Assembly: GCA_017451045.1 (NCBI GenBank)
Contig: JAFSSK010000079.1
Location: 1-36,493, forward strand
Reading direction: 5' to 3'
Length of the DNA: 36,493 bases
Source of the DNA: Clostridia bacterium
GTDB lineage: Bacteria; Bacillota; Clostridia; Oscillospirales; CAG-272
Shown: piece after piece, positions 20,345 to 35,485 of the stretch
How positions within the stretch are numbered: position 1 is the first letter of the stretch
How the letters are laid out: each line of letters begins with the position of its first letter
Notes under the pieces: generated by a model
Seen by the model: only the letters and a program-made list of their open reading frames with translations
Databases searched by the model: none
What the model was told of the DNA's origin: nothing
Made by a program: the position numbers and the translations under genes

Positions 20345-20377
20345 CCCATATCGATCACACAGTCCCGATACAGAAAA

Positions 20378-20414
20378 CCCGGGCTGCGGCAATGCCGCAG
20401 CCCGGGCGCTTTTT
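20378..20414. terminator. Bidirectional terminator between alaS and the ABC operon
   Basis: CCCGGGCTGCGG and CCGCAGCCCGGG form a 12-bp perfect stem with a CAATG loop (20378-20406). On the plus strand CGC and five Ts follow; on the minus strand TTTTC follows directly. It serves convergent alaS (+) and the last permease gene of the sugar operon (-). Confidence 0.93.
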
Positions 20415-20422
20415 CTGCTATC

Positions 20423-21475
20423 TTACGATGCAGTCAGACCGGATCTTTCAATACCCTGTACTAAGAAGTTCTGCAGGAATACATACAGAATGACCAGCGG
20501 GAAAATGATTACCAGACCGCACGTGTTGATGATGGAAGAGTTGTACATATCCCATCCGGGCGATGCCTTGTACGCACGCGCAAGCGATTTCGGCGTGTCG
20601 ATAAAGTTGGTAAGCAGTTTGACCTTTGTGGAATTGAAGAATATTCCGGAATAGAATGTATCCGTCCACTGCCAGCAGAAGGCGAACAGGAATACCGTCA
20701 CCAGCATCGGGATGGACAGCGGAAGAATAATGGAGACAAACGTTCTGAGCGTATTGGAACCGTCGAGGTAGGCGGATTCCTCAAGCTCGTCAGGCAATCC
20801 TCTGAAGAACTGGCGCATTAAGAAGATGTACAAACCGTTCTTGAATGCCAGCCCCGTCAGCGACATGAGCATCAACGGCCAGAAGGTGTTGATCAGGTTT
20901 ATACCGCCGACCGCTTTCATGATCCCGGCCTTGGACAGCAGGTTGAATACACCGTAGATGTCGAAGAAACGGAATTTCATGAACATGGCGAAATGCAGTG
21001 TCCCGTGCGGAATGACCATTGTCAGGATCACCAGGATGAAAACGACCTTGTTGCCCTTGAACTTGAACTTGGCAAGTCCGTAGCCGATCAGGGCGCAGAT
21101 AAATGTCTGGATGACGCCTGCGGCCGTGGACAGGAAGAACGTGTTCATCAGTGAGCCTGCGTAGTTCAGCTCCGTCAGCACCCCGCGGTAGATCTCAAGC
21201 GAGAAGTGCTTGGGGATCAGACGCACCGTCGTATCAACAAAATCGGAGACCGACATAAAGGAGGCCGAGATCTTGGTGATGAACGGATACAGCACGACGT
21301 AGGAGATACCGATCAGCAGCACGAGTCTGAAGATCGTCAGAAGGATCTTCTGGAGGAAATACCAGTTTAAGAACTTGGCTTTGAGACGTTCCTTGAGAGG
21401 AGAACGGTCGAAGTCGACGCGGATTCTGTTTCTGCTCTCGCGTTTTACGCGGGGCTTGTTCATTTCAGCATTCAT
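20423..21475 (-). CDS. Carbohydrate ABC transporter permease, MalG/LplC type (second pair)
   Basis: This 350-aa inner-membrane permease has about six hydrophobic segments. The EAA loop LPDELEESAYLDGSNTLRTFVSIILPLS (about 225-252) contacts the ATPase. A basic cytoplasmic N-terminus of about 60 residues (KPRVKRESRNRIRVDF) is longer than usual. The start is the ATG at 21473-21475, with GGAGG (21484-21488) at 8-nt spacing; an in-frame TTG further upstream overlaps that site. It begins 17 bp after the partner permease and ends the operon just before the terminator. CUT1-type permeases work as MalF/MalG heterodimers, so it should pair with the product of 21493-22467. The substrate is not defined by sequence. 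Confidence 0.93.
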   Translation of the reverse strand: MNAEMNKPRVKRESRNRIRVDFDRSPLKERLKAKFLNWYFLQKILLTIFRLVLLIGISYVVLYPFITKISASFMSVSDFVDTTVRLIPKHFSLEIYRGVLTELNYAGSLMNTFFLSTAAGVIQTFICALIGYGLAKFKFKGNKVVFILVILTMVIPHGTLHFAMFMKFRFFDIYGVFNLLSKAGIMKAVGGINLINTFWPLMLMSLTGLAFKNGLYIFLMRQFFRGLPDELEESAYLDGSNTLRTFVSIILPLSIPMLVTVFLFAFCWQWTDTFYSGIFFNSTKVKLLTNFIDTPKSLARAYKASPGWDMYNSSIINTCGLVIIFPLVILYVFLQNFLVQGIERSGLTAS

Positions 21476-21492
21476 CTTCAAGTCCTCCCTTC

Positions 21493-22467
21493 TCAATCAC
21501 GCCTCTGGTAGAAGACGAACGCCGAGCAGATACCGGCGATAATGCCAACCACCAGGAAGATGATGAAGAAGTAAGTCCAGGCCATGGCCGAACTGATTTC
21601 CTCACCTGATTTCGAATAGGCATCGTTGATGTACATCATCACGATGTTGCTGTTCGTTGTGAAACTGTCAATGACCGTATAGATGGCATTGACCAGGATC
21701 ATGGGACTGATCATCGGGAAAGTGATCTTCCAGAAGGTTTCCCATGTGGTCGCGCCGTCTATCTTGCACGCCTCGTAAATGGCCGGGGAAATGCCCTGCA
21801 GGGCCGACAGGAATATCAGCATCTGCACGCCGGAGCGGTTGACCAGGTTGAATATGTTGTTGACCATCGTCACGACATATACCGCCAGGCCGCGTCCGAA
21901 CTGCATCATCTCGAAGAGTCTCTCGACTTCGAAAAGGCTGACAATTCCTTCCGTCACCTGCTGACCGGAACCGTCATCGATACCGGTGTTCTGCGTTTCC
22001 TCCAGATACTTGTTGACAAGGTCGTTGGCCTGCACGGTCTCCATGATACCCGTCGAAATGATGACGGGGACGAAGAAGATCGCACGGAACGCGGCGCGGC
22101 CCATCATTTTCTGATTGAGCAGTACCGCCATGAACAGTGAGAACACCAGGATCGCCGGGATCTCGAACGCCATGTTTGCCAGACCCGTCAGAAGCGTCTG
22201 AACGAATTCCGTATCCTTGAAGAATGCATCGTAGTAGTTGGCCCAGCCGACCCACTCTGTCGAGTAGCCGCCGCCCTGGATGATCGTGATCTCCTGGAAA
22301 CTCATCGTCAGGGAGTTCCAGACCATCGGTACGTAGATGCAGACAAACCCGAGAACAAACGGCAGAACGAAGAACCAGCCTGCACGCGCCTTACGCTTAT
22401 CCAGCGAGGCAATTCGTTTCTTCTTTGGTTTAGAAGCCGAATTCTGAAGTTTAACTTCCTGTGTCAT
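21493..22467 (-). CDS. Sugar ABC transporter permease, MalF/LplB type (second pair)
   Basis: This 324-aa permease starts with a basic cytoplasmic tail (KPKKKRIASLDKRKARAGW). The first membrane segment, FFVLPFVLGFVCIYVPMVW, is followed by a periplasm-side loop and the EAA loop SPAIYEACKIDGATTWETFWKITFPM (about 226-250). Compared with ordinary CUT1 permeases, it carries about 45 extra residues (about 146-190: NDLVNKYLEETQNTGIDDGS and following) between membrane segments. These may form an external lid or docking element. The ATG at 22465-22467 has AAGGAG upstream. An ATG 27 nt earlier overlaps the previous stop and lacks a ribosome site. It should form a heterodimer with the next gene product. 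Confidence 0.92.
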   Translation of the reverse strand: MTQEVKLQNSASKPKKKRIASLDKRKARAGWFFVLPFVLGFVCIYVPMVWNSLTMSFQEITIIQGGGYSTEWVGWANYYDAFFKDTEFVQTLLTGLANMAFEIPAILVFSLFMAVLLNQKMMGRAAFRAIFFVPVIISTGIMETVQANDLVNKYLEETQNTGIDDGSGQQVTEGIVSLFEVERLFEMMQFGRGLAVYVVTMVNNIFNLVNRSGVQMLIFLSALQGISPAIYEACKIDGATTWETFWKITFPMISPMILVNAIYTVIDSFTTNSNIVMMYINDAYSKSGEEISSAMAWTYFFIIFLVVGIIAGICSAFVFYQRRD

Positions 22468-22487
22468 AAGACTCTGTTCTCCTTTCC

Positions 22488-25400
22488 TTACCATTTGATG
22501 ATCACGAACTCGTTGGACGGGATCGTGTAAAGGACGCCTTCATACTCGATCTCAACGGAATATGAGTTGTAGTTCAGGATGATCGTTTTGTACGGAGCGT
22601 TGTCCACGCCGTTCTTGCCGCCGTAGGTAACGGCAACGATCTTGGCGTCATCCGCCTCATATTTGTTGAAGGCTATTTCCTCTTCGCCCTCTTCTCCGCT
22701 CTCACCGGAACCGGAATCGTCGGTTTCCGAAGGCGCTACGGAAGCGACATCACGCTCTTCAAGGCCGGTCGCGTATGCGTTAGCGTAAGCCTGTTCGAGA
22801 AGCGCGTTCAGCGTTTCAAGATCAGCTTCCAGCAGCGGCATCATCGCATCAACCTCAGCCTTGTAGTTGTCGACCTCGCTTCTGATGAACGGCAGGATGT
22901 CCTCGATGCCGTCGATCACTGCCACAGCGTCTGTGAGCTGCTGGTAGTTGGCCGGTACGCTCTTCTTATAGGAGAACGTCGAGGCGATCTCATCCATCGC
23001 GCGCTTGATCGCCTGCAGCAGTTTGGACTTCGCGCTGTTCATGTTGGTTTCAGCCCGCTGCTTCTCATAGGAGGTGGCAGTCGGCGAAAGATTGTTGTAA
23101 TCCGCCACACGCATCTTGTAGGTCTCGCCGTAAGTGACGATCTCGTTGACGTACGTCGTGGAGGAGGCTACTCTCTTGTCCAGGAACGCCAGTGCGGTCT
23201 CGGCCCATTCATACGACAGCAGCGCGTTCGCTCTGGCGTCGTTGACCGATTTGATCTTTTCAAACTGGCTGTTCTCGGCCGCAAGCCTTTCGGCTTCCAT
23301 GGCATCCAGGTAGGCCTGAAGCAGATCGTTCAGCGTCTCGTCTTCATCCGGGACACGATTTCCCTTGACGAATTCGTGGTTGATGATCAGCTTGGTCTGA
23401 ACGTCTTTGATCGCATCGTTTACAGTGTTGTAGGAAGCGATGACGTCTTCACGCCAGATGTCGTAGGAAATGGAGTAGTATTTGCTGTAAAGACCGAGGT
23501 CTTTCAGGATGGACGTGTTCCTGTAGGACAGGATGTAATACAGGGACGAACCGCTTTCGATCGCCTTCAGGACCGCATCCGTCATGTTCCCTTCCATGTT
23601 CGCGGCGGACCCGGCGTACTGCAGGTATCCGTGCGTGACGATCCCGAAGAACGGGACTTCCTTGGAAGCACGCGTGTATTTACTTGACGTCAGCGGCGCA
23701 TCCACGATGTAGTCGGTATAGGCCCATGTGTACAGGTTGCCGCCGTTCGTCATGACCGAGCTGTACTGCTCGTCGAAATAACTGAACGCTTTCTGAACGA
23801 ACTCCATGGAGTCGTTGCGGTTGTACGGTTCTTCGCTATCGAAGTCTGAGTTCAGAATATAACCCAGCGTGGAAACAGAAATGTTCGTCGCGCCCGTCTT
23901 CAGGTAATTCTTCGTCAGCTTGGTGTAGAACCGTTCGTAAACGCCCGGAGAGATCGCTATGTTCATACCGGTCGAGATGTAGGACTGGTATGACGGCGAG
24001 TACTCTCTGTACCGTCTGTATCTGTCGTTGATACCCTTGATGGCGTCGCGCTTGAGCGATACGCCGTCGAACGCGCCCGATTTGCACATCCAGACGAAGT
24101 CGAAGTCAGGATAGATGCCGAGGCTCGATCCGTCGCCAGCGGAGCTGACGGTGTCGGCGTAAGCCAGCAGTTTCTTGAACCCGGATTTCCCGCCGACGGA
24201 TCCGACCCATTTGAGCCTGTAGGCCATGGTCGAGATCAAACCGCCGTTCGTGAAGCCGGTCAGCTGGAACTTGACGTTGTTGATCCCTTCCGCTTTCAGT
24301 TCCTCGTACATCGTGATGATGTCCGTGAACGTCGTCAGCGGTTTCTTGACGTTGACAGGTACGGAGAGGATATGCTCCTCGTAATCCATCGCGCCGAAGG
24401 AATCGATGTAAAGCGGAATGTTTTCCGTCACATCAGTATCCGTCAGCCTTGTCAGGATTCCCTTGTTCTCAAGGTAGTTCCTGTAGGCCTGAGCCATCGC
24501 CACGTAATCCGTGGTGAAGTAATTGGTGAGCCCGGCGCTTTCGGCCTTGGTCTCGTCATGCAGCATGATGTAGCGGATGACGAAGTTGCCTGTGTATTTT
24601 CTGTTGGAACTCTGCGTCCAGGTCGTCGTTCCGGACACGGACAGCGAGTCGTTCATCCTGAACGTGTCTTTCGGCCTTGGCAGGAAGTACGTCATCATCG
24701 TGTTGTAGTCGCTGGTCGAGCCGGCATGATAGGTTGCCAGTTCCGCCATTGTCTCACCTTGCTCGATGATGGCGAAGAATCCTTTGTCTGTCTTGACCTC
24801 GGTGATATCGCTCAGAAGGATCGTAGACGAGTCGCCCGCGATCTTTTTCTTGAGATCGGCCAGATTCGTGGTCGTGGAGGAGTATACGTAATCGTCCTCC
24901 GTCCTTGTCTCCTTGCCGTTCTTGTCGGTCGTTGTCACTTCCGCCCGGTATGTATAGGACGTTGCCGTTTCACGGATACCGTAGACCGGATACCGGATCG
25001 CCCGCTGGTATTTGCCGGACAGCAGCGTATATGCGTAGTCCGTACCGTAGATCGGGTTTTTGACGGTCGTCGTCTGCGTGCCGTTCAGTTTCTCGTACTC
25101 GAACAGGGCGCCCGATCCGTCAGGATAGAAGTTATATCCGGGGTTGGCGCTGTTGCCTGCTCCGAAGTACGGCAGGATGCTGATCGACTCCAGCGTATAC
25201 AGCGAAGAGTTGAACCGGATACCGTTCGCCGGCAGACGCACGGTGAATCCGTCTTCGTTGATCGAGTACTCAAGCGCCATCTTGAAGACCGGGGAGACGT
25301 CCTGCGAGGAGTCGTATCCGACTTCGGCATGGTCGATCTCAAGCTGCTCGAACGTATACTCGGGCGCATATGTCTTGATAACGTTCTCAACGTCGTTCAG

Positions 25401-26153
25401 AAGCCTTGTGGTCGCCTTCTGGTCGAAGACCATCAGCGAGCCGACCTGCTCCAGAACCGGGAAACGCCTGATGGCGTCTTTCTTGAACGTATCGGAGGTT
25501 ATGACCTCCAGGTCGTAAACGACGTAACCCGACGTCAGTTTTTTGAACCAGAAGTTTTCACGTCCGCCCGGGAGCGCTTTCGCGACCGGGATAGCCAGGT
25601 TTTCCTCGAAGCTGGCGGTCGTGATCATACGGGGAACGAGTCGTCTGGAGTTTTCATCACCCATGATGTACTCCACACGGACGCCGTTCTTGATACGCTG
25701 GATGGAGATCTGCTCACGCAGGCAGGCTTCCTTGTAACTCGTGAAAGTCTTTTTCGCTCCGGACGTATCGATGAAGCGGACTAAGATCTGTGACAGGATC
25801 TCCTGCTTGGTCGTTTCCGAACCAATGGACGTCGCCACGTCGAACGGGTTGGACAGGAGGAATTCGCCTGTCTTCTCATCCTTGATGGCAAACTCGCCGG
25901 TGTACTGCTGGAAATACAGTGAGTAGTCGCCCTTCGTCAGGTAGCACTTCATTGTCGCCAGCTTGTCTTCGGCGCTCTTGTAACCCTCTTTCACATAGTC
26001 TTTTTCCGTCAGTGCCTTGTATGCTTCCGCCTCGATCTCCTCTTGGGTCTGTTCGGCAGCGAACGTCTGCGTCGTGAGGATCGCCGTAACGGAGCCGAAG
26101 ACCATGAGGCATGTCAGGAACACGGATAAGATTTGAATCAGTTTGTTTTTCAT
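22488..26153 (-). CDS. Large secreted DUF5696-type protein
   Basis: This 1221-aa exported protein has an N-terminal signal peptide (MKNKLIQILSVFLTCLMVFG, likely cut near TFAA-EQ). A beta-rich N-terminal half (about 60-500) includes YFQQYTGEFAIKDEKTGEFLLSNPFD. The middle (about 555-880) reads like a TIM-barrel (LENKGILTRL, PLYIDSFGAMDYEE, SLGIYPDFDFVW, TLGYILNSDFDSEEPYNRND, FFGIVTHGYLQYAG). A long helical part (about 920-1135), an acidic linker (SGESGEEGEEE) and a small beta domain ending YTIPSNEFVIIKW follow. It resembles DUF5696 proteins that recur beside ABC sugar transporters; similarity to glycoside hydrolase barrels is inferred. The ATG at 26151-26153 has GGAG at 9-nt spacing; another ATG 9 nt earlier touches that site. 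Confidence 0.85.
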   Translation of the reverse strand: MKNKLIQILSVFLTCLMVFGSVTAILTTQTFAAEQTQEEIEAEAYKALTEKDYVKEGYKSAEDKLATMKCYLTKGDYSLYFQQYTGEFAIKDEKTGEFLLSNPFDVATSIGSETTKQEILSQILVRFIDTSGAKKTFTSYKEACLREQISIQRIKNGVRVEYIMGDENSRRLVPRMITTASFEENLAIPVAKALPGGRENFWFKKLTSGYVVYDLEVITSDTFKKDAIRRFPVLEQVGSLMVFDQKATTRLLNDVENVIKTYAPEYTFEQLEIDHAEVGYDSSQDVSPVFKMALEYSINEDGFTVRLPANGIRFNSSLYTLESISILPYFGAGNSANPGYNFYPDGSGALFEYEKLNGTQTTTVKNPIYGTDYAYTLLSGKYQRAIRYPVYGIRETATSYTYRAEVTTTDKNGKETRTEDDYVYSSTTTNLADLKKKIAGDSSTILLSDITEVKTDKGFFAIIEQGETMAELATYHAGSTSDYNTMMTYFLPRPKDTFRMNDSLSVSGTTTWTQSSNRKYTGNFVIRYIMLHDETKAESAGLTNYFTTDYVAMAQAYRNYLENKGILTRLTDTDVTENIPLYIDSFGAMDYEEHILSVPVNVKKPLTTFTDIITMYEELKAEGINNVKFQLTGFTNGGLISTMAYRLKWVGSVGGKSGFKKLLAYADTVSSAGDGSSLGIYPDFDFVWMCKSGAFDGVSLKRDAIKGINDRYRRYREYSPSYQSYISTGMNIAISPGVYERFYTKLTKNYLKTGATNISVSTLGYILNSDFDSEEPYNRNDSMEFVQKAFSYFDEQYSSVMTNGGNLYTWAYTDYIVDAPLTSSKYTRASKEVPFFGIVTHGYLQYAGSAANMEGNMTDAVLKAIESGSSLYYILSYRNTSILKDLGLYSKYYSISYDIWREDVIASYNTVNDAIKDVQTKLIINHEFVKGNRVPDEDETLNDLLQAYLDAMEAERLAAENSQFEKIKSVNDARANALLSYEWAETALAFLDKRVASSTTYVNEIVTYGETYKMRVADYNNLSPTATSYEKQRAETNMNSAKSKLLQAIKRAMDEIASTFSYKKSVPANYQQLTDAVAVIDGIEDILPFIRSEVDNYKAEVDAMMPLLEADLETLNALLEQAYANAYATGLEERDVASVAPSETDDSGSGESGEEGEEEIAFNKYEADDAKIVAVTYGGKNGVDNAPYKTIILNYNSYSVEIEYEGVLYTIPSNEFVIIKW

Positions 26154-26174: not shown

Positions 26175-28310
26175 TTACAATCGGTACTGAATCTCTTGCA
26201 CAATGTTGGTGATCAGACTGACCAGTTTGATCAGAAGCGTTGTGAAGAGCGTTGCGACAAACATGATGAACGCCATTCCGATGATCGTTCCCAGGATTGT
26301 GATCAGGTTCTTGCCGCCCAGGTAGTCGTGCGTGACCTGCAGTCCGAAGACCAGCAGCAGCCCCGCCCAGACATAGGACACGACATTCAGGAACGTGACG
26401 ATACCGGCTTCGCTTTCCGTCAGGAAGTTGGAAAGTATCGTGGAAGGAATGAGTATCAGTACGATCGGAAGCAGCGCGTAGCAGGAAGCGATGAAAATGT
26501 CTTTCAGGCTTCCTTCGCCGTCAAACAGCGTCGTCAGACACCAGTTGGCGAGCATGAACAGTCCCAGCGGCAGCACGACCGAAATGATGACAACCCAGAT
26601 CGGTGAGTGATTTCTGTAAGGATTGAACACGTATCCGCTGCCGACGTTCTGGTAGAAGAAGGCCAGGATCGTAAGTCCTAAGAACGTCAGGGCGGCGCGC
26701 ATGGAACCGCGTTTCTCATGTTTCAGGTCCCAGAAACCGTCGAACGGATGCATGATCACATGGAATCCGTAGTACAGTTCCTCGACATATTTTGTCTTCC
26801 TTCCTGCAACGGCCACGGCCGCGTTCACTTTGCCGACATGCTTGAGCGCCTTGGCGATCAGAACGATCACGATGATAAGGACCAGCAGGGTCAGCGGCAG
26901 CCAGGAGGCCATCCAGTCTTTACGGACCTCTTTGTAGGAATTGGACCAGTTCTTTGTTTCATAGGCGATCTCGAAGTATTGCATTGCCTGCTTGTAATCG
27001 CCTGCTCTGTAGTAAGCCTGACCGATACCGACGTAAGCCGCGTCAAAGTTGGAGTTGTGCTGAAGCACGCGCTTCCAGCATTCGATCGCGTAGTCGTAGT
27101 TCAGGTTGTTCTGCGCGGCGATGGCTTCCAGAAGAAGGTCGCCGTACTCGGTGCGCTCATAGACCATGACCGAAAGGTTCGATGAATCCAGCACCAGCAT
27201 CCTCGTGTCCTGGTAGGTAATGGCGCGGATCGTCGTGATGGATCCCAGCATGGACGTGTTGTCGCCGAAGGCGAACAGCAGGTTGCCGTCATAGTCATAT
27301 GTGTAGATCTTGCTTCGCTTGCTGTCGATGATGGACCATGTCTGCTCGGGACCGCAGGCCACGTCAACGATGGTTGACGGACCGAAGATCTCCTCGCTCG
27401 AAACGGTCGTATACTGGATCTCGCCTGCCGGCGGCCAGAAGCCGTTTCTTCTCATGATCTCGTCGCCCTTGGAGTTGAGCAGCTTGACGGGAAGATTCTT
27501 GCCGTCGGTCTGACCGGCCGTGATAGCGTCGGCAAGATCCTGCTCCTTGATGGACGATGTCGTCACATACAGGTTACCGTCCTGGTCAAGGGCGATATTG
27601 TTGAATTCGGTCGAGACGAAGGATTTCGTCAGCGCGCGCTGCTCTTCCGTCTGGAACCGTCTCCAGATGATCTGCCAGAAGGTGATAGAGACCGCCTGCG
27701 CGCCGATGAAGTTCTGGAAGTTTCCGTCTTCATCCAGCACGATGATACCCTGATAGGTGGAAGATGAAACCACATACAGACGGTTGTACTGGTCGACTGC
27801 CATCGCCACTGGTTTGTAGATGGCGTTGTTGTCGAACAGCGAACTCTCGGGAGCCTCCAGGATCCGCAGGTAGTTGCCTTCCCTGTCGAAGATCACGATA
27901 CGGCTGGAACCTGTATCGCAGACCCAGATCCTGTCCGAGCTGATGAAAACGCCCTGCGGCGCATTCAGGCTGTCCGGAACGCCCTGGTCGTTGATGAACT
28001 CCCCGATCGTCATCTTCAGTTTGAAATATCTGTCGAGGACCACGATCCTGTTGTTTCCGGTGTCCGCAATATATACGTTGTTCGCGTCGTCCGTGATCAG
28101 GTCGTTCGGCGTTTTCAGCGGTACTTCGAGGCCCATATAGGCTGAATCGACGCTCTGCTTGGCGGCATAGGCGTCAGGAGACCACTGGACTTCTCCGTCG
28201 ATCGAATACGTGTAGGTCTGATAGGCGGATGCGGCGCCGACTGTCAGCGGCACTACCATCAGGATCAGCAGTACGATGGCCAGGACGGAGATTAGTTTCT
28301 TTGCTCTCAT
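26175..28310 (-). CDS. NHL-propeller / TPR / YIP1 multi-domain membrane protein
   Basis: This 711-aa protein combines three modules. After a signal peptide (LISVLAIVLLILMVVPLTVG) comes an NHL-type beta-propeller (about 65-385) with repeats such as PNDLITDDANNVYIADTGNNRIVVLDR and PQGVFISSDRIWVCDTGSSRIVIFDR. One to two TPR units follow (about 390-453, NYDYAIECWKRVLQ and DYKQAMQYFEIAYE). A membrane helix (about 468-488) leads to a five-helix YIP1 domain beginning HPFDGFWDLKHEKRGS (about 520-700). The propeller and TPR should face outside. The ATG at 28308-28310 has GGAGG at 7-nt spacing, overlapping the preceding stop codon. Its place between ABC permeases and the DUF5696 gene suggests a scaffold, sensor or assembly role; the true function is unknown. 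Confidence 0.85.
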   Translation of the reverse strand: MRAKKLISVLAIVLLILMVVPLTVGAASAYQTYTYSIDGEVQWSPDAYAAKQSVDSAYMGLEVPLKTPNDLITDDANNVYIADTGNNRIVVLDRYFKLKMTIGEFINDQGVPDSLNAPQGVFISSDRIWVCDTGSSRIVIFDREGNYLRILEAPESSLFDNNAIYKPVAMAVDQYNRLYVVSSSTYQGIIVLDEDGNFQNFIGAQAVSITFWQIIWRRFQTEEQRALTKSFVSTEFNNIALDQDGNLYVTTSSIKEQDLADAITAGQTDGKNLPVKLLNSKGDEIMRRNGFWPPAGEIQYTTVSSEEIFGPSTIVDVACGPEQTWSIIDSKRSKIYTYDYDGNLLFAFGDNTSMLGSITTIRAITYQDTRMLVLDSSNLSVMVYERTEYGDLLLEAIAAQNNLNYDYAIECWKRVLQHNSNFDAAYVGIGQAYYRAGDYKQAMQYFEIAYETKNWSNSYKEVRKDWMASWLPLTLLVLIIVIVLIAKALKHVGKVNAAVAVAGRKTKYVEELYYGFHVIMHPFDGFWDLKHEKRGSMRAALTFLGLTILAFFYQNVGSGYVFNPYRNHSPIWVVIISVVLPLGLFMLANWCLTTLFDGEGSLKDIFIASCYALLPIVLILIPSTILSNFLTESEAGIVTFLNVVSYVWAGLLLVFGLQVTHDYLGGKNLITILGTIIGMAFIMFVATLFTTLLIKLVSLITNIVQEIQYRL

Positions 28311-28322
28311 TTCTTCTCCTCC

Positions 28323-29195
28323 TTAATCCTTCATACCGCTGGAGCCCATCGTCTCGATGATGTTGGACTGCGATATGACGAAGACCGCGATCGGGACCGC
28401 CATCATGATAACGAGCGATGCAGCCCCCGCGCCGGCACGTTTGATACCGCCCGCGAGTATCTGGGAGATCGCGTAGTTGAATGACTTGTACTGCTCCGAA
28501 TAGATATAAACGGAAGATCCGGCATTCCAGAGGCCCTGGAAACTGTAAATGATCAGGGTCAGCCAGGCCGGTTTGACCATCGGCATGGCGATCGTCCAGA
28601 AGATCCGCAACTCGCTTGCGCCGTCCAGCCGCGCGCTTTCCAGAACGGAGTCGTTCACGTTCGGGGCCATGAAGTTCTTCATCAGGGAAATACCCAGCGT
28701 GGAACCCCATGCGGGAATGATCAGCGCCCAATAGGTATCCAGCCAGTGGAACCAGGACATGATCAGGAAGCTCGTGATCGATGTAACGGTCGCGTTGAAC
28801 ATCAGCGACGTCCTGATGGACAGGAAGATGCCGATGCTGCCCGGGAATCTGATCTTGGCCAGCGCATAGGCTGCGAGAGAGGCCAGGAACAAATGTCCGA
28901 ACGTTCCGCCCACGGAAATGAAGATCGTGTTGAAAATATACCGGGAGAACGGAACCCAGGAGGTCTGCATCAATGTGAACAGATCTTTGTAATTCTTAAG
29001 TGTAGGACTCATTACCCAGAACTTCGGGGGGTACATCCACAACTCATCCAGCGGTTTCAGTGACTGGATAATCACGTAAAACATCGGGACGAACATGAAA
29101 GCGCCGAGTAAGCTCAGGATAACGGTAATGCCTGCATCACCGCCCGCGGAACGGGCCAGGACAACTCTGTGTCCTCTTGTTCTTAACCTAGCCAT
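28323..29195 (-). CDS. Carbohydrate ABC transporter permease, MalG type (first pair)
   Basis: This 290-aa membrane permease has about six hydrophobic segments (first: ITVILSLLGAFMFVPMFYVII). The EAA loop NDSVLESARLDGASELRIFWTIAMPM lies at about 180-205, the site that couples to the nucleotide-binding subunit. The start ATG at 29193-29195 lies only 3 bp after the stop of the partner permease. The only ribosome-site-like sequence is GCGGTGA over that stop, so translation is probably coupled. The N-terminus is short and basic (MARLRTRGHRVVLARSAGG). It pairs with the product of 29199-30152. The C-terminus carries the usual last helix and SNIIETMGSSGMKD. No ATPase gene is in the operon. Confidence 0.93.
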   Translation of the reverse strand: MARLRTRGHRVVLARSAGGDAGITVILSLLGAFMFVPMFYVIIQSLKPLDELWMYPPKFWVMSPTLKNYKDLFTLMQTSWVPFSRYIFNTIFISVGGTFGHLFLASLAAYALAKIRFPGSIGIFLSIRTSLMFNATVTSITSFLIMSWFHWLDTYWALIIPAWGSTLGISLMKNFMAPNVNDSVLESARLDGASELRIFWTIAMPMVKPAWLTLIIYSFQGLWNAGSSVYIYSEQYKSFNYAISQILAGGIKRAGAGAASLVIMMAVPIAVFVISQSNIIETMGSSGMKD

Positions 29196-29198
29196 AAC

Positions 29199-30152
29199 TC
29201 ACCGCCCCATTCTTGAGATTATTCTGGTGACCAGCAGGTTCGCGCCGATCATGATCAGGAACAGTATCACCGCGATGGTCGACGCGTAACCCATCTCATA
29301 CCTTCTGGAGCCGTAGTCCTCCAGATGATGCATGATGGTGTGCGCGCAGTAGTCCACCGAGGGGAACCCGCACAAAGCCGTAACGATCGCACCGAAGCCG
29401 AACGAACCCGTGATGGACATGATCGCGCCGAACATCAGCTGCGGCTTCATACTGGGCAAGGTGATGTACCAAAGCTCCTGCCACCTGTTCCGGATGCCGT
29501 CAACGGCTCCGGCCTCGTAGTAGGACCGGTCGATTCCCTGCAGACCGGCGATGAATGACAGGAACGCTGTACCCAGCGAGGTCCACAGTGAAACGATGAT
29601 GACCAGCGGCATGACCGTGATGGAGTTCTTGAACCAGGCGATAGGCGTCGTGATCACGCCCATTTCCAGGAGCAGGGCGTTCGCCCAGCCGTACGCGTCT
29701 GCCGAGAACAGTGTCTGCCAGATCAGGTAGACCTGGCCGGAGATCGACGGCGCGTAGAAAATCAGCGTCACGACGGCACGGATCTTCGGGGGGATCTCGT
29801 TGATGAACCACGCCACGAACAGAGACATCAGGTAGGACGTCGGTCCCACGATACCTGCGAAGATGAGCGTGTTCTTGCAGCAGATCAGGAAGATATCATC
29901 ATCGAAGAACAATGAGATATAGTTGCTGATGCCGATGAAGTTCGGCCATTCCATCATGTTGAAGTCCGTGAAGCTGAACACGACGGAAAGCGCTACGGGG
30001 AAGAATGTGAACAGTGTAAAGATCAGCATGTACGGCAGGATCATCAGGTATGCGACCCAGTTCCGCTTCATTTCTTTCAGAGTCCACTGCAGCCTCGTCA
30101 TATCCTTGCGGGATACGGCTACCGGTTTTGATTCAGAAGATGCATTTCCCAA
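29199..30152 (-). CDS. Sugar ABC transporter permease, MalF/UgpA type (first pair)
   Basis: This 317-aa membrane permease is typical of the CUT1 class. The first helix WVAYLMILPYMLIFTLFTFFPV is followed by a substrate-side loop with FTDFNMMEWPNFIGISNYI. The EAA loop DRSYYEAGAVDGIRNRWQELWYITLPSM lies at about 207-235. The start is TTG (30150-30152), with AAAGGAG just downstream of the solute-binding gene stop and 11-nt spacing. The nearest ATG is out of frame, and a later in-frame ATG (residue 18) has a poor site. It lies 20 bp after the solute-binding protein gene, the usual order for binding protein followed by permeases. Confidence 0.92.
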   Translation of the reverse strand: MGNASSESKPVAVSRKDMTRLQWTLKEMKRNWVAYLMILPYMLIFTLFTFFPVALSVVFSFTDFNMMEWPNFIGISNYISLFFDDDIFLICCKNTLIFAGIVGPTSYLMSLFVAWFINEIPPKIRAVVTLIFYAPSISGQVYLIWQTLFSADAYGWANALLLEMGVITTPIAWFKNSITVMPLVIIVSLWTSLGTAFLSFIAGLQGIDRSYYEAGAVDGIRNRWQELWYITLPSMKPQLMFGAIMSITGSFGFGAIVTALCGFPSVDYCAHTIMHHLEDYGSRRYEMGYASTIAVILFLIMIGANLLVTRIISRMGR

Positions 30153-30172: not shown

Positions 30173-33100
30173 TCAACTGTTTGCCTGCGCATATTGCAGA
30201 TACGCATTGTATGTGTCGCTAAGACACTTGGAGATGAAATACAGCAGCTGGTATTCCGTCAGGGACGAAATGCTGTAACCGCCGAACCTTGCCTCGGCAG
30301 ACTGCTGAGACACATACACGAAGTAGTCGTCCTCGGGGACGCTGCTGAGCAGCTTCATGATGGATTCAGAAGTCTGCTGCAGGAGCGTGACGTTCTTGTT
30401 CGCCAGCGCGTATTTCGCTTCTTCGATGTACTTGTCGTATTTGCCCGGAGCTTTCTGTGCGAGAGCCAGGTAAGCCTCGACGGCCTGAGACGTACGCTTG
30501 GCCGCCAGCGTCTGTCCGACTTCGAGCGTCTCCAGCTCGAACTCTTTCCGCTTACGGGAAATTTCCTTGTTAATTGTATTAATGTAACTCAAAAGTTCCG
30601 TGACCGGGTTCGCGTCCTTGCCGTAAGCCGCCAGGAATGCGAATTCGGTATACCGGTAGAGGATGTAGTAGCCGGGGTAGTTCGGGATGGCCGCCAGGTT
30701 GTTGAACTGCAGCATGATCTGCTCGTATTCGGCCGGCGTCCACGGCATCAGGGCCAGCGCGTCCTTGTTGGCTGTCGCCTGCTTTGCGGAGTCACCGATG
30801 ATGGCGACCATTTCCGTTGCGTACTCAGCCTGCGTTTCGGCGCTTGTGTACCAGCTGATGAATTTCCAGGACGATTCGATGTCGTCGCATCCCGTGATCA
30901 GGACGTCGGCGCCGACGGTCGAAATCACGCGGTTGTTGATGTTGCCGTTTTCATCCTTCGTTCCGGGGATCGGCAGGAACGTCCACAAGCCGTCGATTTC
31001 AGTCGCGAAAACCTTCAATTTATTATAAAGGCCTACGTAGTCGTTCAGCACGATCGGCATTTCACCGGTCCTGAAACGGTTCGACGCTTCGAACGAATAC
31101 GGGAAGGAATGCATGGTATACAGCTCTGTCAGCTGGTTGAATGCCTCAAGTCCCTTGGAGGAGTCAAGATTGATCCTCATGCCGCCGTCAGCGAACAGGT
31201 CGCCGTCGTTCTGGTACAGGAACGTGCAGTACTGGACCTGATACAGTTCGCTGCCGTAATCAAGCGGCACGCCGACTTCCATGTTGTTCGCCTCGAGGAT
31301 CGGCAGGGCTGCGTAAATATCGTCCCAGGTCTTCGGGATGTCGATCCCGAGCTTTGCCAGGACGTCCACGCGGACGAACATCATTTCGAACGTCTGCGTC
31401 TCGGGGAGTCCGTAATAGTGCATGACGTTGTACTTGTCCTCGATGCCGAGCACCAGCATGGCAGCGTCTGTAAAGCTTGTCGTGACCTGTGCGAATCCTT
31501 CCTGATTCTCGATCGGGATCAGCGCGCCACGGATGGCGTAGTTGATAACGTCCGTCGCGGAAAGTCCTAAGTAAACATCAGGTCCGGATCCGGACAGGAT
31601 GGACGGGAGCAGCGTACCTCCGGCGACCAGTTTCAGGTCGACAGCGATACCCGTGTTCGCCGTGAATCTGTTGGTGCACATGTTTCTAACGACCTGCGCC
31701 TGGTCACGACCGAGTGCGAGCCACGCTTCAATGGAAGCGCTTCCCTCTTTGTCGGATTCGGCCATGGCGCCGAGCGAGTTGTAATCGCGGAAGAAGCTTG
31801 CGAAGAAGCTCTTCATCTCATGCCAGAAGGCGACGAAGAAATTGGCGGACGCCTTCGGGAGCGGCTGTCCCGCGCCCTGGATCTGTATGTAGTCGAAATC
31901 AAGAGGCTGGTTTTTAACTTCGGTCAGGAAGGTGCCGAGCGTACCGATGTACGCTTTGAGGTTGGAAAGGTTGACGGCGATGTTGTCCTCGTCCGTGCCC
32001 ATCTTGTTCAGCAGCATCGAGATCTGGTCGAGGACCGCGGTCACGGTACTTGCCTGCCCTGCGACTTCCTTGAAGTAGGTGTTCATTTCGTTCAGCCTTC
32101 TCGCCTGGACGATCAGGTCCTTACAGGTCTGCGGCATGACGCGGTAGAAACCGTAGTCGCGGTACTGGTCGGGCGTCGTGCCTGTCAGCTTCAGGATGTT
32201 CAGGTAGTCGTCATTGATGTGATTCAGGATGTCCGTCGCTTCCTGCAGCAGCTCGCCCATGGAGCCGAGCGTCACTTCGAACTTGATCGTATACTTGACG
32301 CCCGCTTTGAAATAGAACTGATAATTGATATCATTGCCGTTTTCATCCTTGAGGCCGCCGTTCATGACGGTCGTCTTCCACTGCTCGGTATAGCCGAAGC
32401 GGATGGCGGTCGCCTCCTCGAACGGGATCCCGTCGTAGTAGCCGTCCTCGCCGGGAGCGAGGCCTTCACTGTAGATGTACAGGTTGCGGCATACGAACAT
32501 ACCGTCCAGAAGATCCTGCTTGAATCTTGCGACGATATCGTAAAGTCCCGCGGATGAGACGCTGAAGGAGTAGGAGATCGCTTTTCCGGGGGTCTCCCAT
32601 TTTTCGCCGCCGATCTGGTTGAGAACCGTACGGGTGACGTCAGACGGGGACATGGCTGCGTCGGATCTGTTTTCGATGGGGTATACCGTATTGGAAGAGA
32701 GCGAGGAAACATATTCGCCCTCGATCTTGACCAGGTCGGTCCCGGGCTGGGCAGAAGCGTATTTTGAGATATACTCCTGATATGTCAGCCGGTCGGTCGG
32801 TTTAGCCAATGTTATGGAGGAGATAGCCATCGGCTCGTTGATACCGGTCAGGGTTATCGTGTTTTCTCCCTTTTCGAAAACGAACTCGAACGGATCCGCA
32901 TAGATTCCGTCGATGTCGCGGATCGCGTAATCGCTCCAGACCGGGACCTGAACGGCCGACGGACGGAGTTCGTTATTGCTGATGTCGGTGGTCATGAACC
33001 GCAGTTTGAGTTCTTCGTTCAGATAGGAGCTGATCTCACCGGTCCAGAACTCCGGATAGGAATACTCGATGTAGGTCCCCTTCTCGTCCGAACCTTTCTG

Positions 33101-33685
33101 CGCCTCGATGCCGAGCTCACCGGCTTTCTGCAGGTAAGCGGCCGTCTCCGACTCCGCAACGTAGAGCTTGGCTTTCGCGTAGTCCAGCTCATAATTCTTC
33201 GGGAAAGTCACTTCAGACACCTCGGAGAAAGGCGTCTTTCCGTTGATCTTGATCTCACGTTCGATAGCCGCCGCTTTTGCAGCGACGGAATTATAGCGGA
33301 TGATCAGCGTATACCTGGCTCTTTCCGGCACGTTCACCTTGATCGTGATCTTGCCTGAACTCGGGGTATACACTGCCTGCTCGCCGTCGATCGTTACGAT
33401 CTCGTAGGCTGCATTAGAGCTGTCTGCATCAGCAACAAGCGCATCGACAGCGTTGACCGTGATATCGGCTGCTGCACGGCTGACCGACGCGTGCAACTGC
33501 AGATACTCCTTGTATGAGATCGCGCTGAGCTTGTCGACAAAATCTGCTATCGTCTTGGTCGAGACGGACGAGTTTGTCCCTGTGGTTTCTCCGCCTTCGG
33601 CGCTGACAGAAATCACAAAGCAGCCCGCCACCATAACCAGCGACAGCAGCAATGCAGGAATTCTTTTCAGTAAAGTTTTCCTCAT
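30173..33685 (-). CDS. Giant extracellular solute-binding protein with N-terminal carbohydrate-binding-like modules
   Basis: This 1170-aa surface protein leads the operon. Its signal region LLLSLVMVAGCFVISVSAEGG has a possible lipobox (VAGC, Cys22) and a possible type I cleavage site after VSA, so lipid anchoring is uncertain. Residues from about 75 to 450 look like two beta-sandwich modules (ITIKVNVPERARYTLIIRYNS; AISYSFSVSSAGLYDIVARFK). A helical part (about 500-610) and the linker FWHEMKSFFASFFRDYNSLG follow. A type-1 sugar-binding-protein domain (about 645-1040) contains LSGSGPDVYLGLSATDVINY, PKTWDDIYAALPIL and SSWKFISWYTSAETQ. Ordinary binding proteins have 420-550 aa. A charged helical tail closes it. 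The ATG at 33683-33685 has GGAGG 5 nt away. The ligand is unknown. Confidence 0.88.
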   Translation of the reverse strand: MRKTLLKRIPALLLSLVMVAGCFVISVSAEGGETTGTNSSVSTKTIADFVDKLSAISYKEYLQLHASVSRAAADITVNAVDALVADADSSNAAYEIVTIDGEQAVYTPSSGKITIKVNVPERARYTLIIRYNSVAAKAAAIEREIKINGKTPFSEVSEVTFPKNYELDYAKAKLYVAESETAAYLQKAGELGIEAQKGSDEKGTYIEYSYPEFWTGEISSYLNEELKLRFMTTDISNNELRPSAVQVPVWSDYAIRDIDGIYADPFEFVFEKGENTITLTGINEPMAISSITLAKPTDRLTYQEYISKYASAQPGTDLVKIEGEYVSSLSSNTVYPIENRSDAAMSPSDVTRTVLNQIGGEKWETPGKAISYSFSVSSAGLYDIVARFKQDLLDGMFVCRNLYIYSEGLAPGEDGYYDGIPFEEATAIRFGYTEQWKTTVMNGGLKDENGNDINYQFYFKAGVKYTIKFEVTLGSMGELLQEATDILNHINDDYLNILKLTGTTPDQYRDYGFYRVMPQTCKDLIVQARRLNEMNTYFKEVAGQASTVTAVLDQISMLLNKMGTDEDNIAVNLSNLKAYIGTLGTFLTEVKNQPLDFDYIQIQGAGQPLPKASANFFVAFWHEMKSFFASFFRDYNSLGAMAESDKEGSASIEAWLALGRDQAQVVRNMCTNRFTANTGIAVDLKLVAGGTLLPSILSGSGPDVYLGLSATDVINYAIRGALIPIENQEGFAQVTTSFTDAAMLVLGIEDKYNVMHYYGLPETQTFEMMFVRVDVLAKLGIDIPKTWDDIYAALPILEANNMEVGVPLDYGSELYQVQYCTFLYQNDGDLFADGGMRINLDSSKGLEAFNQLTELYTMHSFPYSFEASNRFRTGEMPIVLNDYVGLYNKLKVFATEIDGLWTFLPIPGTKDENGNINNRVISTVGADVLITGCDDIESSWKFISWYTSAETQAEYATEMVAIIGDSAKQATANKDALALMPWTPAEYEQIMLQFNNLAAIPNYPGYYILYRYTEFAFLAAYGKDANPVTELLSYINTINKEISRKRKEFELETLEVGQTLAAKRTSQAVEAYLALAQKAPGKYDKYIEEAKYALANKNVTLLQQTSESIMKLLSSVPEDDYFVYVSQQSAEARFGGYSISSLTEYQLLYFISKCLSDTYNAYLQYAQANS

Positions 33686-33789: not shown

Positions 33790-33818
33790 ATTTTACCACA
33801 GTTAAAATATGATGTCAA
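33790..33818 (-). promoter_or_regulatory. Promoter of the seven-gene ABC operon
   Basis: On the minus strand there is a perfect TTGACA (33813-33818), a 17-bp spacer and TAAAAT (33790-33795). The predicted start is near 33783, giving a leader of about 98 nt. No terminator interrupts the seven genes down to 20423; gaps are 3-21 bp. Confidence 0.88.
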
Positions 33819-33881: not shown

Positions 33882-34180
33882 CTTCTTGCGTTCTTTTGGC
33901 ACTTTTCCAGACGCACCTGTCACCGCTTCCGTCCTATCGGCAAGATATCCCCCGGAATCTGTACTTTTTCGACCGCTATCCGGCAGTTTTCGCCTCTTTT
34001 CCCGTGTCAACCTGCTGCATGGCGCGGTATGTTCATGCGCGGGCGGGATCATTCTGTTCCCATAAACCGGATCCGGCCGTGCAGGCTGTCTCGTTATTTT
34101 GCACAAAAACGGGCGCTCGTTTTCTACCGATCCGTCAAAATTATTATTTTGAAGAAAGAGGCGGATTTTTTGCTTGCCTA
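33882..34180. other. Intergenic region without a supported gene
   Basis: This stretch lies between the divergent ABC operon and the methyltransferase gene. Open frames on both strands are short, lack ribosome sites and encode unrecognisable proteins. The plus strand is pyrimidine-rich. The only structured element seen is the inverted repeat AAAACG/CGTTTT (34106-34123, 6-bp spacer), which could be a regulator site. Confidence 0.6.
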
Positions 34181-34209
34181 TTGCTTTTGCAGCCCCGTTT
34201 TGCTATCAT
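34181..34209 (+). promoter_or_regulatory. Putative promoter of the methyltransferase gene
   Basis: A weak -35 TTGCTT (34181-34186), a 17-bp spacer and TATCAT (34204-34209) place the start near 34216, 30 nt before the ATG. The -35 matches consensus at only three positions. Confidence 0.55.
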
Positions 34210-34245
34210 ATCCTCAACGACATTATTGCACGGAAGGACAGGGAT

Positions 34246-35475
34246 ATGCAGACAGGAAGACCGTATCAAACGGCTACAGTAACGGAAAAAGCGGAAGAGT
34301 TTTTACGGGGCGGACACGTATGGGTCTACGGCGAGGAGATCCTCTCGCTCACGAAACAGCCCCGTGACGGGGATATCGTCGATATCGTCTCCCAAAAGGG
34401 AAAATACCTCGGAAGCGGTTTTTTCAATAGCCGTTCGAAGATCCGGATAAGGACCGTCTCGAAAAATGCGAACGACCGCTTCGATGCAGCCTTCTGGGTC
34501 CGGCGCGTCGAGTACGCCGTCCGGTACAGGCAGAGCGTCATGGGAAAGAATCTTCCCGTATGCCGCCTCATCTTCGGCGAGGCTGACGGCTTCCCTGGCC
34601 TTGTCGCAGATCTGTTCGAGTCCCTTCTCGTCCTGCAGAACACGTGTCTCGGCACGGAGCAGCGCCTTGGAAAGATTGTTCCCCCGCTGCTTTCCGTCCT
34701 GTCCGACTGCGGTGTCGTCGTGGAGGCGGTCTACATGCGCAACGACTCTTCCATCAGGACGATCGAAGGGCTGCCGCAGGAAAGCGGATTCTGGCAGGGT
34801 GACGGGCTTTTGAACGACTACCCCTCCCCCGTTCTTATCACAGAAAGCGGGATCAAGTACGAACTGGACTACCGGGAAGGCCAGAAGACCGGTTTCTTCC
34901 TGGATCAGAAATACAATCGGCTGGCCATCCGCCCGATAGCCGCGGGAAAACGGGTGCTGGACTGCTGCACCCATACCGGGTCCTTTGCGCTTCACGCAGC
35001 GGCGGCGGGCGCTTTGAGCGTCGAGGCGCTTGATATCTCGCCGGATGCCGTCGAGGCCGCGCAGCGCAACGCGAAACACAACGGGCTCGAAGACAAGATC
35101 ACCTTCCGCGTGGCGGACGTGTTCGATTTTCTTGAGGACAAAGTGAAAAAAGGCGCCCGTGAATACGATCTCGTTATCCTGGATCCGCCCGCTTTCACGA
35201 AAAGCCGGGAAACACTGCGGAACGCCATCAAAGGCTACCTTGAGATCAACACCCTGGCCATGCGGCTGCTGCCGAAAGGCGGATACCTGGCCACCTGCTC
35301 CTGCTCGCATTTCATGACAGAGACCTATTTCAGGCAGATGCTCCACAACGCGGCGGCGGCCGCCGGCGTGTCGTTGCGGCAGGTGGAGGCCCGCAAGCAG
35401 GCTCCGGACCATCCGATCCTGTGGAACGTGCCGGAGACGGACTATCTGAAATTCTATATCTTCCAGATTGTCTGA
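34246..35475 (+). CDS. Class I SAM-dependent 23S rRNA (cytosine-5) methyltransferase, RlmI-like
   Basis: This 409-aa protein has an N-terminal PUA-type RNA-binding domain (about 5-80, HVWVYGEEILSLTKQPRDGDIVDIVSQKGKYLGSGFFN). A RlmI-like middle (YREGQKTGFFLDQKYNR) and a Rossmann methyltransferase domain follow. SAM motif I is VLDCCTHTGSFALHAA (about 236-251), motif IV is VILDPPAFTKS (about 312), and the CSCSHFM cysteines (about 351) suit an m5C mechanism. E. coli RlmI methylates C1962 of 23S rRNA; the same target is likely but not proven. The ATG at 34246 has GGAAGGA upstream. A TTG-started reading 24 codons longer overlaps the promoter and is rejected. It is monocistronic with a strong terminator. 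Confidence 0.9.
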   Translation: MQTGRPYQTATVTEKAEEFLRGGHVWVYGEEILSLTKQPRDGDIVDIVSQKGKYLGSGFFNSRSKIRIRTVSKNANDRFDAAFWVRRVEYAVRYRQSVMGKNLPVCRLIFGEADGFPGLVADLFESLLVLQNTCLGTEQRLGKIVPPLLSVLSDCGVVVEAVYMRNDSSIRTIEGLPQESGFWQGDGLLNDYPSPVLITESGIKYELDYREGQKTGFFLDQKYNRLAIRPIAAGKRVLDCCTHTGSFALHAAAAGALSVEALDISPDAVEAAQRNAKHNGLEDKITFRVADVFDFLEDKVKKGAREYDLVILDPPAFTKSRETLRNAIKGYLEINTLAMRLLPKGGYLATCSCSHFMTETYFRQMLHNAAAAAGVSLRQVEARKQAPDHPILWNVPETDYLKFYIFQIV

Positions 35476-35485
35476 CAAGACGACG

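Follow-up and report, generated by a model that had tools for sequence, protein, structure and literature searches.

Several described systems bear on the locus presented here. YknW is a Yip1 protein that modulates the assembly of the ABC exporter YknXYZ in Bacillus (PMC4887032), and Yip1 proteins have also been found to accompany bacteriocin ABC transporters (PMC10707071). A review from 2019 described the function of prokaryotic YIP1-domain proteins as unreported and proposed that they have roles in the transport of hydrophilic solutes or as receptors (PMC6682643). With respect to carbohydrate uptake, the gpPULs of Roseburia and Eubacterium group a transporter, glycoside hydrolases and a regulator for each polysaccharide (PMC5320581).

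The window, that is the whole stretch of 36,493 nucleotides analysed, comes from contig JAFSSK010000079.1 of a Clostridia bacterium. Like YknW, the protein studied here has a YIP1 domain and is encoded together with an ABC transporter. However, the partner of YknW is a MacB-type exporter, whereas here a sugar importer of the CUT1 type takes that place, and the YIP1 domain is accompanied by a large propeller-TPR ectodomain, either in the same chain or encoded next to it. Neighbours of the YknWXYZ type (a MacB-type permease, a membrane fusion protein and an ATPase) were not found, CUT1 permeases and a solute-binding protein (SBP) being present instead. The locus shows the features of a CUT1 importer, namely an EAA permease pair and a sugar-type SBP, and has in common with UgpAE, MalFG and MsmEFG with MsmX the EAA permease pairs, the lipoprotein SBP and, probably, an ATPase encoded elsewhere. 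Unlike the usual CUT1 operons, it contains two permease pairs, an SBP of 1170 aa and, in addition, the conserved NHL-TPR-YIP1 and DUF5696 proteins. Moreover, the gpPULs as described lack a hallmark protein comparable to SusC/SusD, whereas the loci discussed here can be recognised by an invariant core of four genes. Enzyme, transport and regulator genes do not occur together in the window as they do in a gpPUL: no regulator was seen in it, and upstream of the operon, beyond a methyltransferase gene on the opposite strand, the contig ends in a GH36 fragment. The system is a variation on the CUT1 importer and gpPUL theme and not a wholly new kind.

The eukaryotic YIPF/Yip1 proteins share with the present domain five membrane helices, an N-terminus on the inner side (predicted here) and a Y-x-phi-phi-P motif in the third helix. 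Their Rab/Ypt partners have no counterpart in this locus, where a propeller and a TPR, both predicted to be extracellular, are fused on.

The YIP1 protein and its operon

The fusion of an NHL propeller with a TPR and a YIP1 domain of five helices in one frame, put forward in the earlier note, is borne out by the 711-aa open reading frame, Pfam, a structural model and hydropathy (Table 1). The start of the gene is preceded by a strong Shine-Dalgarno sequence, aaggaggagaagaaATG. Pfam places the domains in the order NHL, TPR and Yip1, with 41.3 bits for NHL (PF01436; cut-off 20), of which only two repeats exceed the cut-off, and 51.1 bits for Yip1 (PF04893; cut-off 28.6), where residues 517-685 correspond to positions 2-171 of the 173 in the profile. 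The TPR matches at residues 425-450 are marginal (TPR_1 28.6 against 27.8, TPR_2 27.2 against 27), and the SGL profile scores 33.5 bits on the propeller. The AlphaFold2 model, computed for a single chain from an 82-row alignment, has a mean pLDDT of 93.7 and a pTM of 0.85. It shows a signal helix, the propeller, TPR helices at residues 388-448, a long helix with a membrane span and a helical YIP1 domain, with high confidence along the whole chain. A PDB fold search was run with the propeller as its only query; solved YIP1 structures were absent from its matches, which has no bearing on the YIP1 fold. The search matched residues 45-384 to the six-bladed NHL propeller 6d69 (Z 29.0, rmsd 2.8, 272 residues), and the propeller further resembles the extracellular NHL domain of PknD (1rwi, Z 25.3) as well as the propellers of SMP-30/gluconolactonase (3dr2, Z 23.6) and streptogramin lyase (2z2o).

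Alignment-averaged hydropathy reveals the signal segment at residues 9-22, one transmembrane (TM) segment at 473-487 and, after residue 505, five YIP1 segments at approximately 542-553, 575-588, 610-625, 638-653 and 672-696. The signal peptide, the TM segment preceding the domain and a basic segment at residues 489-506 fit a predicted topology in which the N-terminus of the YIP1 domain is inside and its C-terminus outside, in agreement with the measured topology of eukaryotic YIPF proteins. The predicted cytoplasmic parts amount to one loop of about 45 residues and some short loops. Alignment conservation shows that the YIP1 motifs HPFDGFWDLKHEKRGS and Y-x-L-x-P are kept; in a 19-row alignment Y611, L613 and P615 are invariant, so that the third-helix Y-x-phi-phi-P motif is retained.

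The gene belongs to a row of seven on the minus strand, in the order SBP, permease A, permease B, YIP1 protein, DUF5696, permease C and permease D, with intergenic gaps of about 20 bases or less, or small overlaps. A promoter-like site ahead of the row and a terminator-like hairpin behind it make a single 13.4-kb transcript likely. The placing of the YIP1 protein between two permease sets in the earlier note is right insofar as it lies between the pairs, with the qualification that DUF5696 also separates it from the second pair. The downstream neighbour of the operon is a convergent alaS gene. On the upstream side, an open reading frame at 34303-35478 (-) was discarded as a neighbour, being spurious and antisense to the PUA/SAM-dependent methyltransferase gene at 34174-35475 (+). 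No RNA elements were found in the window with Rfam. The approximately 650 residues preceding the SBP domain of the solute-binding protein recall carbohydrate-binding beta-sandwiches in sequence, with no Pfam match, and permease C seems longer than permease A between its membrane helices, which might provide a docking loop.

The EAA loop of importer permeases contacts the ATPase, and the EAA motif is kept in all four permeases. No ATPase gene is present in the operon of the window. Among 59 genomes of relatives, 49 have an orphan MalK-type ATPase (OB_MalK) above the cut-off, and the other 10 have none over it; in the genome of the window itself the OB_MalK hit falls below the cut-off. These assemblies are drafts. 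In Paenibacillus cellulosilyticus a ugpC gene heads the operon.

Table 1. Positions of the features of the YIP1 protein and its operon, in window coordinates
Feature	Position	Strand	Basis and remarks
NHL propeller-TPR-TM-YIP1 protein	26175..28310	-	711 aa, ATG start, stop within coordinates; ORF, Pfam, RBS, structure, fold matches
Signal peptide, residues 1-30	28221..28310	-	Hydrophobic segment 9-22, AXA-type end, low-confidence model dip at 23-25
Six-bladed NHL beta-propeller, residues 45-386, predicted extracellular	27153..28178	-	Pfam, AlphaFold2 model, fold matches
TPR, two helical hairpins, residues 388-450	26961..27149	-	Pfam and model
51-residue helix with first membrane span, residues 452-502, TM ~473-487	26805..26957	-	Model and hydropathy
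YIP1 domain, residues 508-711, five predicted membrane helices	26178..26789	-	Pfam and conservation
Large lipoprotein solute-binding protein	30173..33685	-	Pfam SBP_bac_1 in C-terminal half; start at 33685 with SD aggagg; lipobox VAGC
Permease A, UgpA/MalF type, EAA motif	29199..30152	-	
Permease B, UgpE/MalG type, EAA motif	28323..29195	-	
DUF5696 protein, GH129-like fold, predicted secreted	22488..26153	-	Pfam 438 bits; start with SD
Permease C, UgpA type, EAA motif	21493..22494	-	
Permease D, UgpE type, EAA motif	20423..21496	-	
Promoter-like site TTGACA-17-TAAAAT upstream of operon	33790..33818	-	11/12 matches; consensus match only
Terminator-like hairpin past permease D	20377..20407	-	14-bp stem, T tail; consensus match only

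Conservation of the operon and its core

Strong matches to the YIP1 protein were detected in 44 out of 59 genomes from within its family and order and in 26 out of 298 genomes sampled from the phylum, mostly uninterrupted and full length, encoded by a single gene or by two neighbouring ones; the weak matches in the other phylum genomes are other NHL propellers only. A chance joining of domains was ruled out by the uninterrupted full-length homologues across dozens of genera. The operon has no description in the literature searched. In the 120 loci examined, 80 named ones and 40 from other families, orders and classes, DUF5696 lies directly after the YIP1 protein on the same strand in 116; of the other four, two stop at a contig end, one has a broken DUF5696 frame and one a gap of 303 bp. 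The 80 named loci show the order SBP-permA-permB-YIP1 protein-DUF5696-permC-permD to the extent that their contigs cover it, as do most of the 40 distant ones. Had homologues lain mostly away from ABC sugar operons, this would have spoken against the link to the transporter drawn in the earlier note; instead, all the full-length homologues inspected belong to carbohydrate-ABC operons of this one kind.

The two proteins also match in their presence and absence. Out of the 298 phylum genomes, 25 have both, one has the YIP1 protein alone, none has DUF5696 alone and 272 have neither, and the corresponding figures for the genomes of relatives are 43, 0, 1 and 14. The lone DUF5696 among the relatives lies close to a contig end, starting about 250 bases from it. 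The lone propeller (genome G300, L173:7685-8536) is a remnant of 284 aa, also at a contig end and adjoined by unrelated CoA-transferase-like genes, in a genome with no DUF5696 match.

The SBP-permA-permB part of the operon is less constant. In distant loci it may be absent, moved or replaced, with an ordinary SBP often found after permD, whereas the YIP1 protein, DUF5696, permC and permD stay together. Among 19 paralogous loci of two multi-copy genomes, DUF5696 is present in all 19 and permC and permD in 18, compared with seven for permA/B; one of these loci has the order DUF5696-permC-permD-YIP1 protein. Distance correlations within the family of the window likewise group the propeller, YIP1, DUF5696, permC and permD apart from permA and permB, with values of 0.64 for propeller-permC, 0.58 for DUF5696-permC and 0.06 for DUF5696-permA; YIP1 is intermediate (0.59 with permC, 0.48 with permA). 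When only the distant loci are considered, such correlations fail to tell the two permease pairs apart. Mutual-information covariation over 106 paired loci (effective number ~92) shows the same trend at the level of modules. This number is too small for trustworthy residue contacts between YIP1 and the permeases, none of which were obtained, and the YIP1-permC covariation has a positive mean that could reflect shared history. The invariant, co-inherited core is propeller/TPR/YIP1-DUF5696-permC-permD.

In 16 of 61 tree rows the propeller-TPR-TM part and YIP1 are encoded by two adjacent, often overlapping genes. Eight changes between the fused and the split form are needed on the tree, at least three of them forced by well supported branches, and repeated fusion or fission of neighbours is long established as a sign that they are functional or physical partners. 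In Butyrivibrio fibrisolvens D1 the pair is split and lies between the permeases and DUF5696, under the annotations 'NHL repeat-containing protein' and 'YIP1 family protein', and Paenibacillus cellulosilyticus has the fused form, annotated as 'YIP1 family protein'; both are plasmid carriers, the former on pNP243.

DUF5696 and the proposed role of the YIP1 protein

DUF5696, for which no mention was found in the literature searched, resembles the GH129 enzymes NagBb and ZgGH129 both in fold and in profile. The model of a 738-aa homologue (pLDDT 90.2) matches the two over its full length (Z 28.9 and 28.3, respectively), and the sequence-profile match between DUF5696 and GH129 has an E value of 1.8e-13. 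The catalytic aspartate of GH129 is D435 in NagBb and D486 in ZgGH129 (PMC5698469). In DUF5696 its counterpart would be expected at the end of barrel strand 4, a position taken from the strand order and not from superposition; there residues 507-508 are Ser-Pro, with a D+E frequency of 0.00 in 38 sequences; strand 5 has no conserved acid either, and the sole barrel acid kept in more than 85% is E635, before strand 8. A search for GH129 relatives in Bacillota genomes, for alignment of the catalytic residues, returned none, and the controls in the same search were also unmatched. As modelled, DUF5696 has apparently lost the catalytic acids of GH129 and probably binds glycan rather than cleaving it; the operon context thereby offers a likely role for the protein. 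In the family of the window (the window gene, L053, L055, L056, L067 and L077) the DUF5696 frames range in length between about 930 and 2070 aa and extend at the C-terminus past the GH129-like fold.

By genetic context, the assignment of the YIP1 protein to a carbohydrate importer system is well supported. The reading preferred here, at a probability of roughly 0.55, is that it serves a carbohydrate ABC importer of the CUT1 type as a membrane-anchored accessory subunit at the surface, holding the propeller/TPR and DUF5696 over permeases C and D. The signal peptide would put the propeller and the TPR outside; one predicted helix would then cross the membrane, and the five-helix YIP1 domain would lie in it with the N-terminus inside and the C-terminus outside. 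By analogy with YknW, the YIP1 domain may act as a tether or in assembly, packing beside the permease C/D pair and thus fixing the propeller/TPR above the translocation pore. The propeller and the TPR could in turn dock DUF5696, the solute-binding lipoprotein or both, and such a fixed surface station might capture oligosaccharides and pass them to the permeases, with import presumably powered by a shared ATPase of the MsmX/UgpC type encoded elsewhere. The suggestion in the earlier note that the protein organises the transporter fits this anatomy and the YknW precedent, except for an equal tie to both permease sets, since permA/B are missing from 12 of the 19 paralogous loci. Its suggestion of sensing found no such footing: the protein has no cytoplasmic output domain, and the regulators, where there are any, are separate LacI-type or two-component genes.

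Sensing by an NHL propeller has been proposed for the kinase PknD, whose extracellular domain the present propeller resembles (1rwi, Z 25.3), and LacI-type or two-component genes lie near some of the loci, so a sensor that binds glycan outside, with YIP1 passing the signal through the membrane and so governing transcription or the activity of the transporter, has something to recommend it. Nevertheless, the YIP1 protein has no kinase, DNA-binding or other output domain and exposes only loops to the cytoplasm, the regulators are complete on their own where present, and its conservation goes with DUF5696 and permeases C/D and not with regulators, all of which makes the sensor unlikely. A role as an assembly or maturation factor that stays outside the working importer, and that folds, inserts or stabilises the permeases or delivers DUF5696 or the SBP to the surface, is slightly less improbable, given that TPRs and propellers are common scaffolds and that YknW was described as a modulator of complex assembly (PMC4887032). 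However, in multi-copy genomes each operon copy is paired with one YIP1 protein of its own, which suggests a dedicated and not a shared factor, and a lasting role at the surface is favoured by the large and conserved ectodomain.

Between these two in likelihood, and likewise improbable, stands direct transport, with the YIP1 domain itself as a channel or as a third transmembrane subunit for bulky oligosaccharides. The polar residues N589, E634 and H661 are conserved in the YIP1 helices, and the review cited above raises the possibility that the Yip1 proteins of prokaryotes serve as transporters of hydrophilic solutes or as receptors (PMC6682643). Against it, two canonical EAA permease pairs are already available in the operon. 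Moreover, we know of no YIP1 channel. An enzymatic propeller, working as a carbohydrate lyase or lactonase with TPR/YIP1 as a mere anchor, appears very improbable. The resemblance to propellers of the SMP-30/gluconolactonase and streptogramin lyase kinds (SGL 33.5 bits; 3dr2 Z 23.6; 2z2o) would fit an enzyme, but the best fold matches are binding propellers, and the conserved aspartates of the propeller (70, 83, 132, 173, 316, 329 and 375) recur with the NHL blade pattern, which makes a structural role likelier than catalysis.

If the accessory-subunit reading is carried further, the YIP1 domain might be the obligatory membrane subunit of an unnamed class of surface glycan importers in Bacillota, composed of NHL-TPR-YIP1, a non-catalytic binder of GH129 fold, a permease pair and an SBP, present in at least ten copies per genome in some lineages and playing a part like that of SusC/SusD; this wider proposal is tentative and falls somewhat short of even odds. 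A large set of bacterial YIP1 proteins would gain one consistent context in carbohydrate import with fixed partners, and the core could become a hallmark for glycan-uptake loci in Bacillota, where no marker of the SusC/SusD kind has served (PMC5320581). The cultured carriers Butyrivibrio fibrisolvens D1 and Paenibacillus cellulosilyticus make bacterial YIP1 function testable.

Substrates and copy number

The flanks of the distant loci hold genes for GH31, GH42, GH10, GH26, GH43, GH3, GH35, GH28, apiosidase and alginate lyase, along with extra SBPs and LacI-type regulators, and the locus of Butyrivibrio fibrisolvens D1 includes GH43, a kinase/regulator and a transporter. In multi-copy genomes, several copies lie beside differing enzymes (GH106 with pectate lyase, GH115, GH78, GH3, GH43, apiosidase and GH20), and the stretch read around other copies contains none. 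Because the polysaccharide enzymes that flank the copies differ, the gene neighbourhoods suggest glycan import with what may be a differing target for each copy. Three genomes of 2-3 Mb (G139, G120 and G098) encode 10 to 16 Yip1-profile proteins each, most of them in frames of 680-840 aa.

Most of these 10-16 copies (for instance L174-L192) are full-length propeller-TPR-YIP1 proteins beside their own DUF5696 and permeases, an expansion that looks comparable to that of SusC/SusD. Csac_0297-0301 of C. saccharolyticus, a predicted glucomannan transporter, was considered as a possible member and set aside, as no sequence link was obtained. In Paenibacillus cellulosilyticus (L194:7897-29520), several LLM-class flavin-dependent oxidoreductases and an NADPH-dependent oxidoreductase are interleaved with SBPs after the operon, a set that is odd for a plain sugar locus, and the substrate in this organism may be an unusual one.
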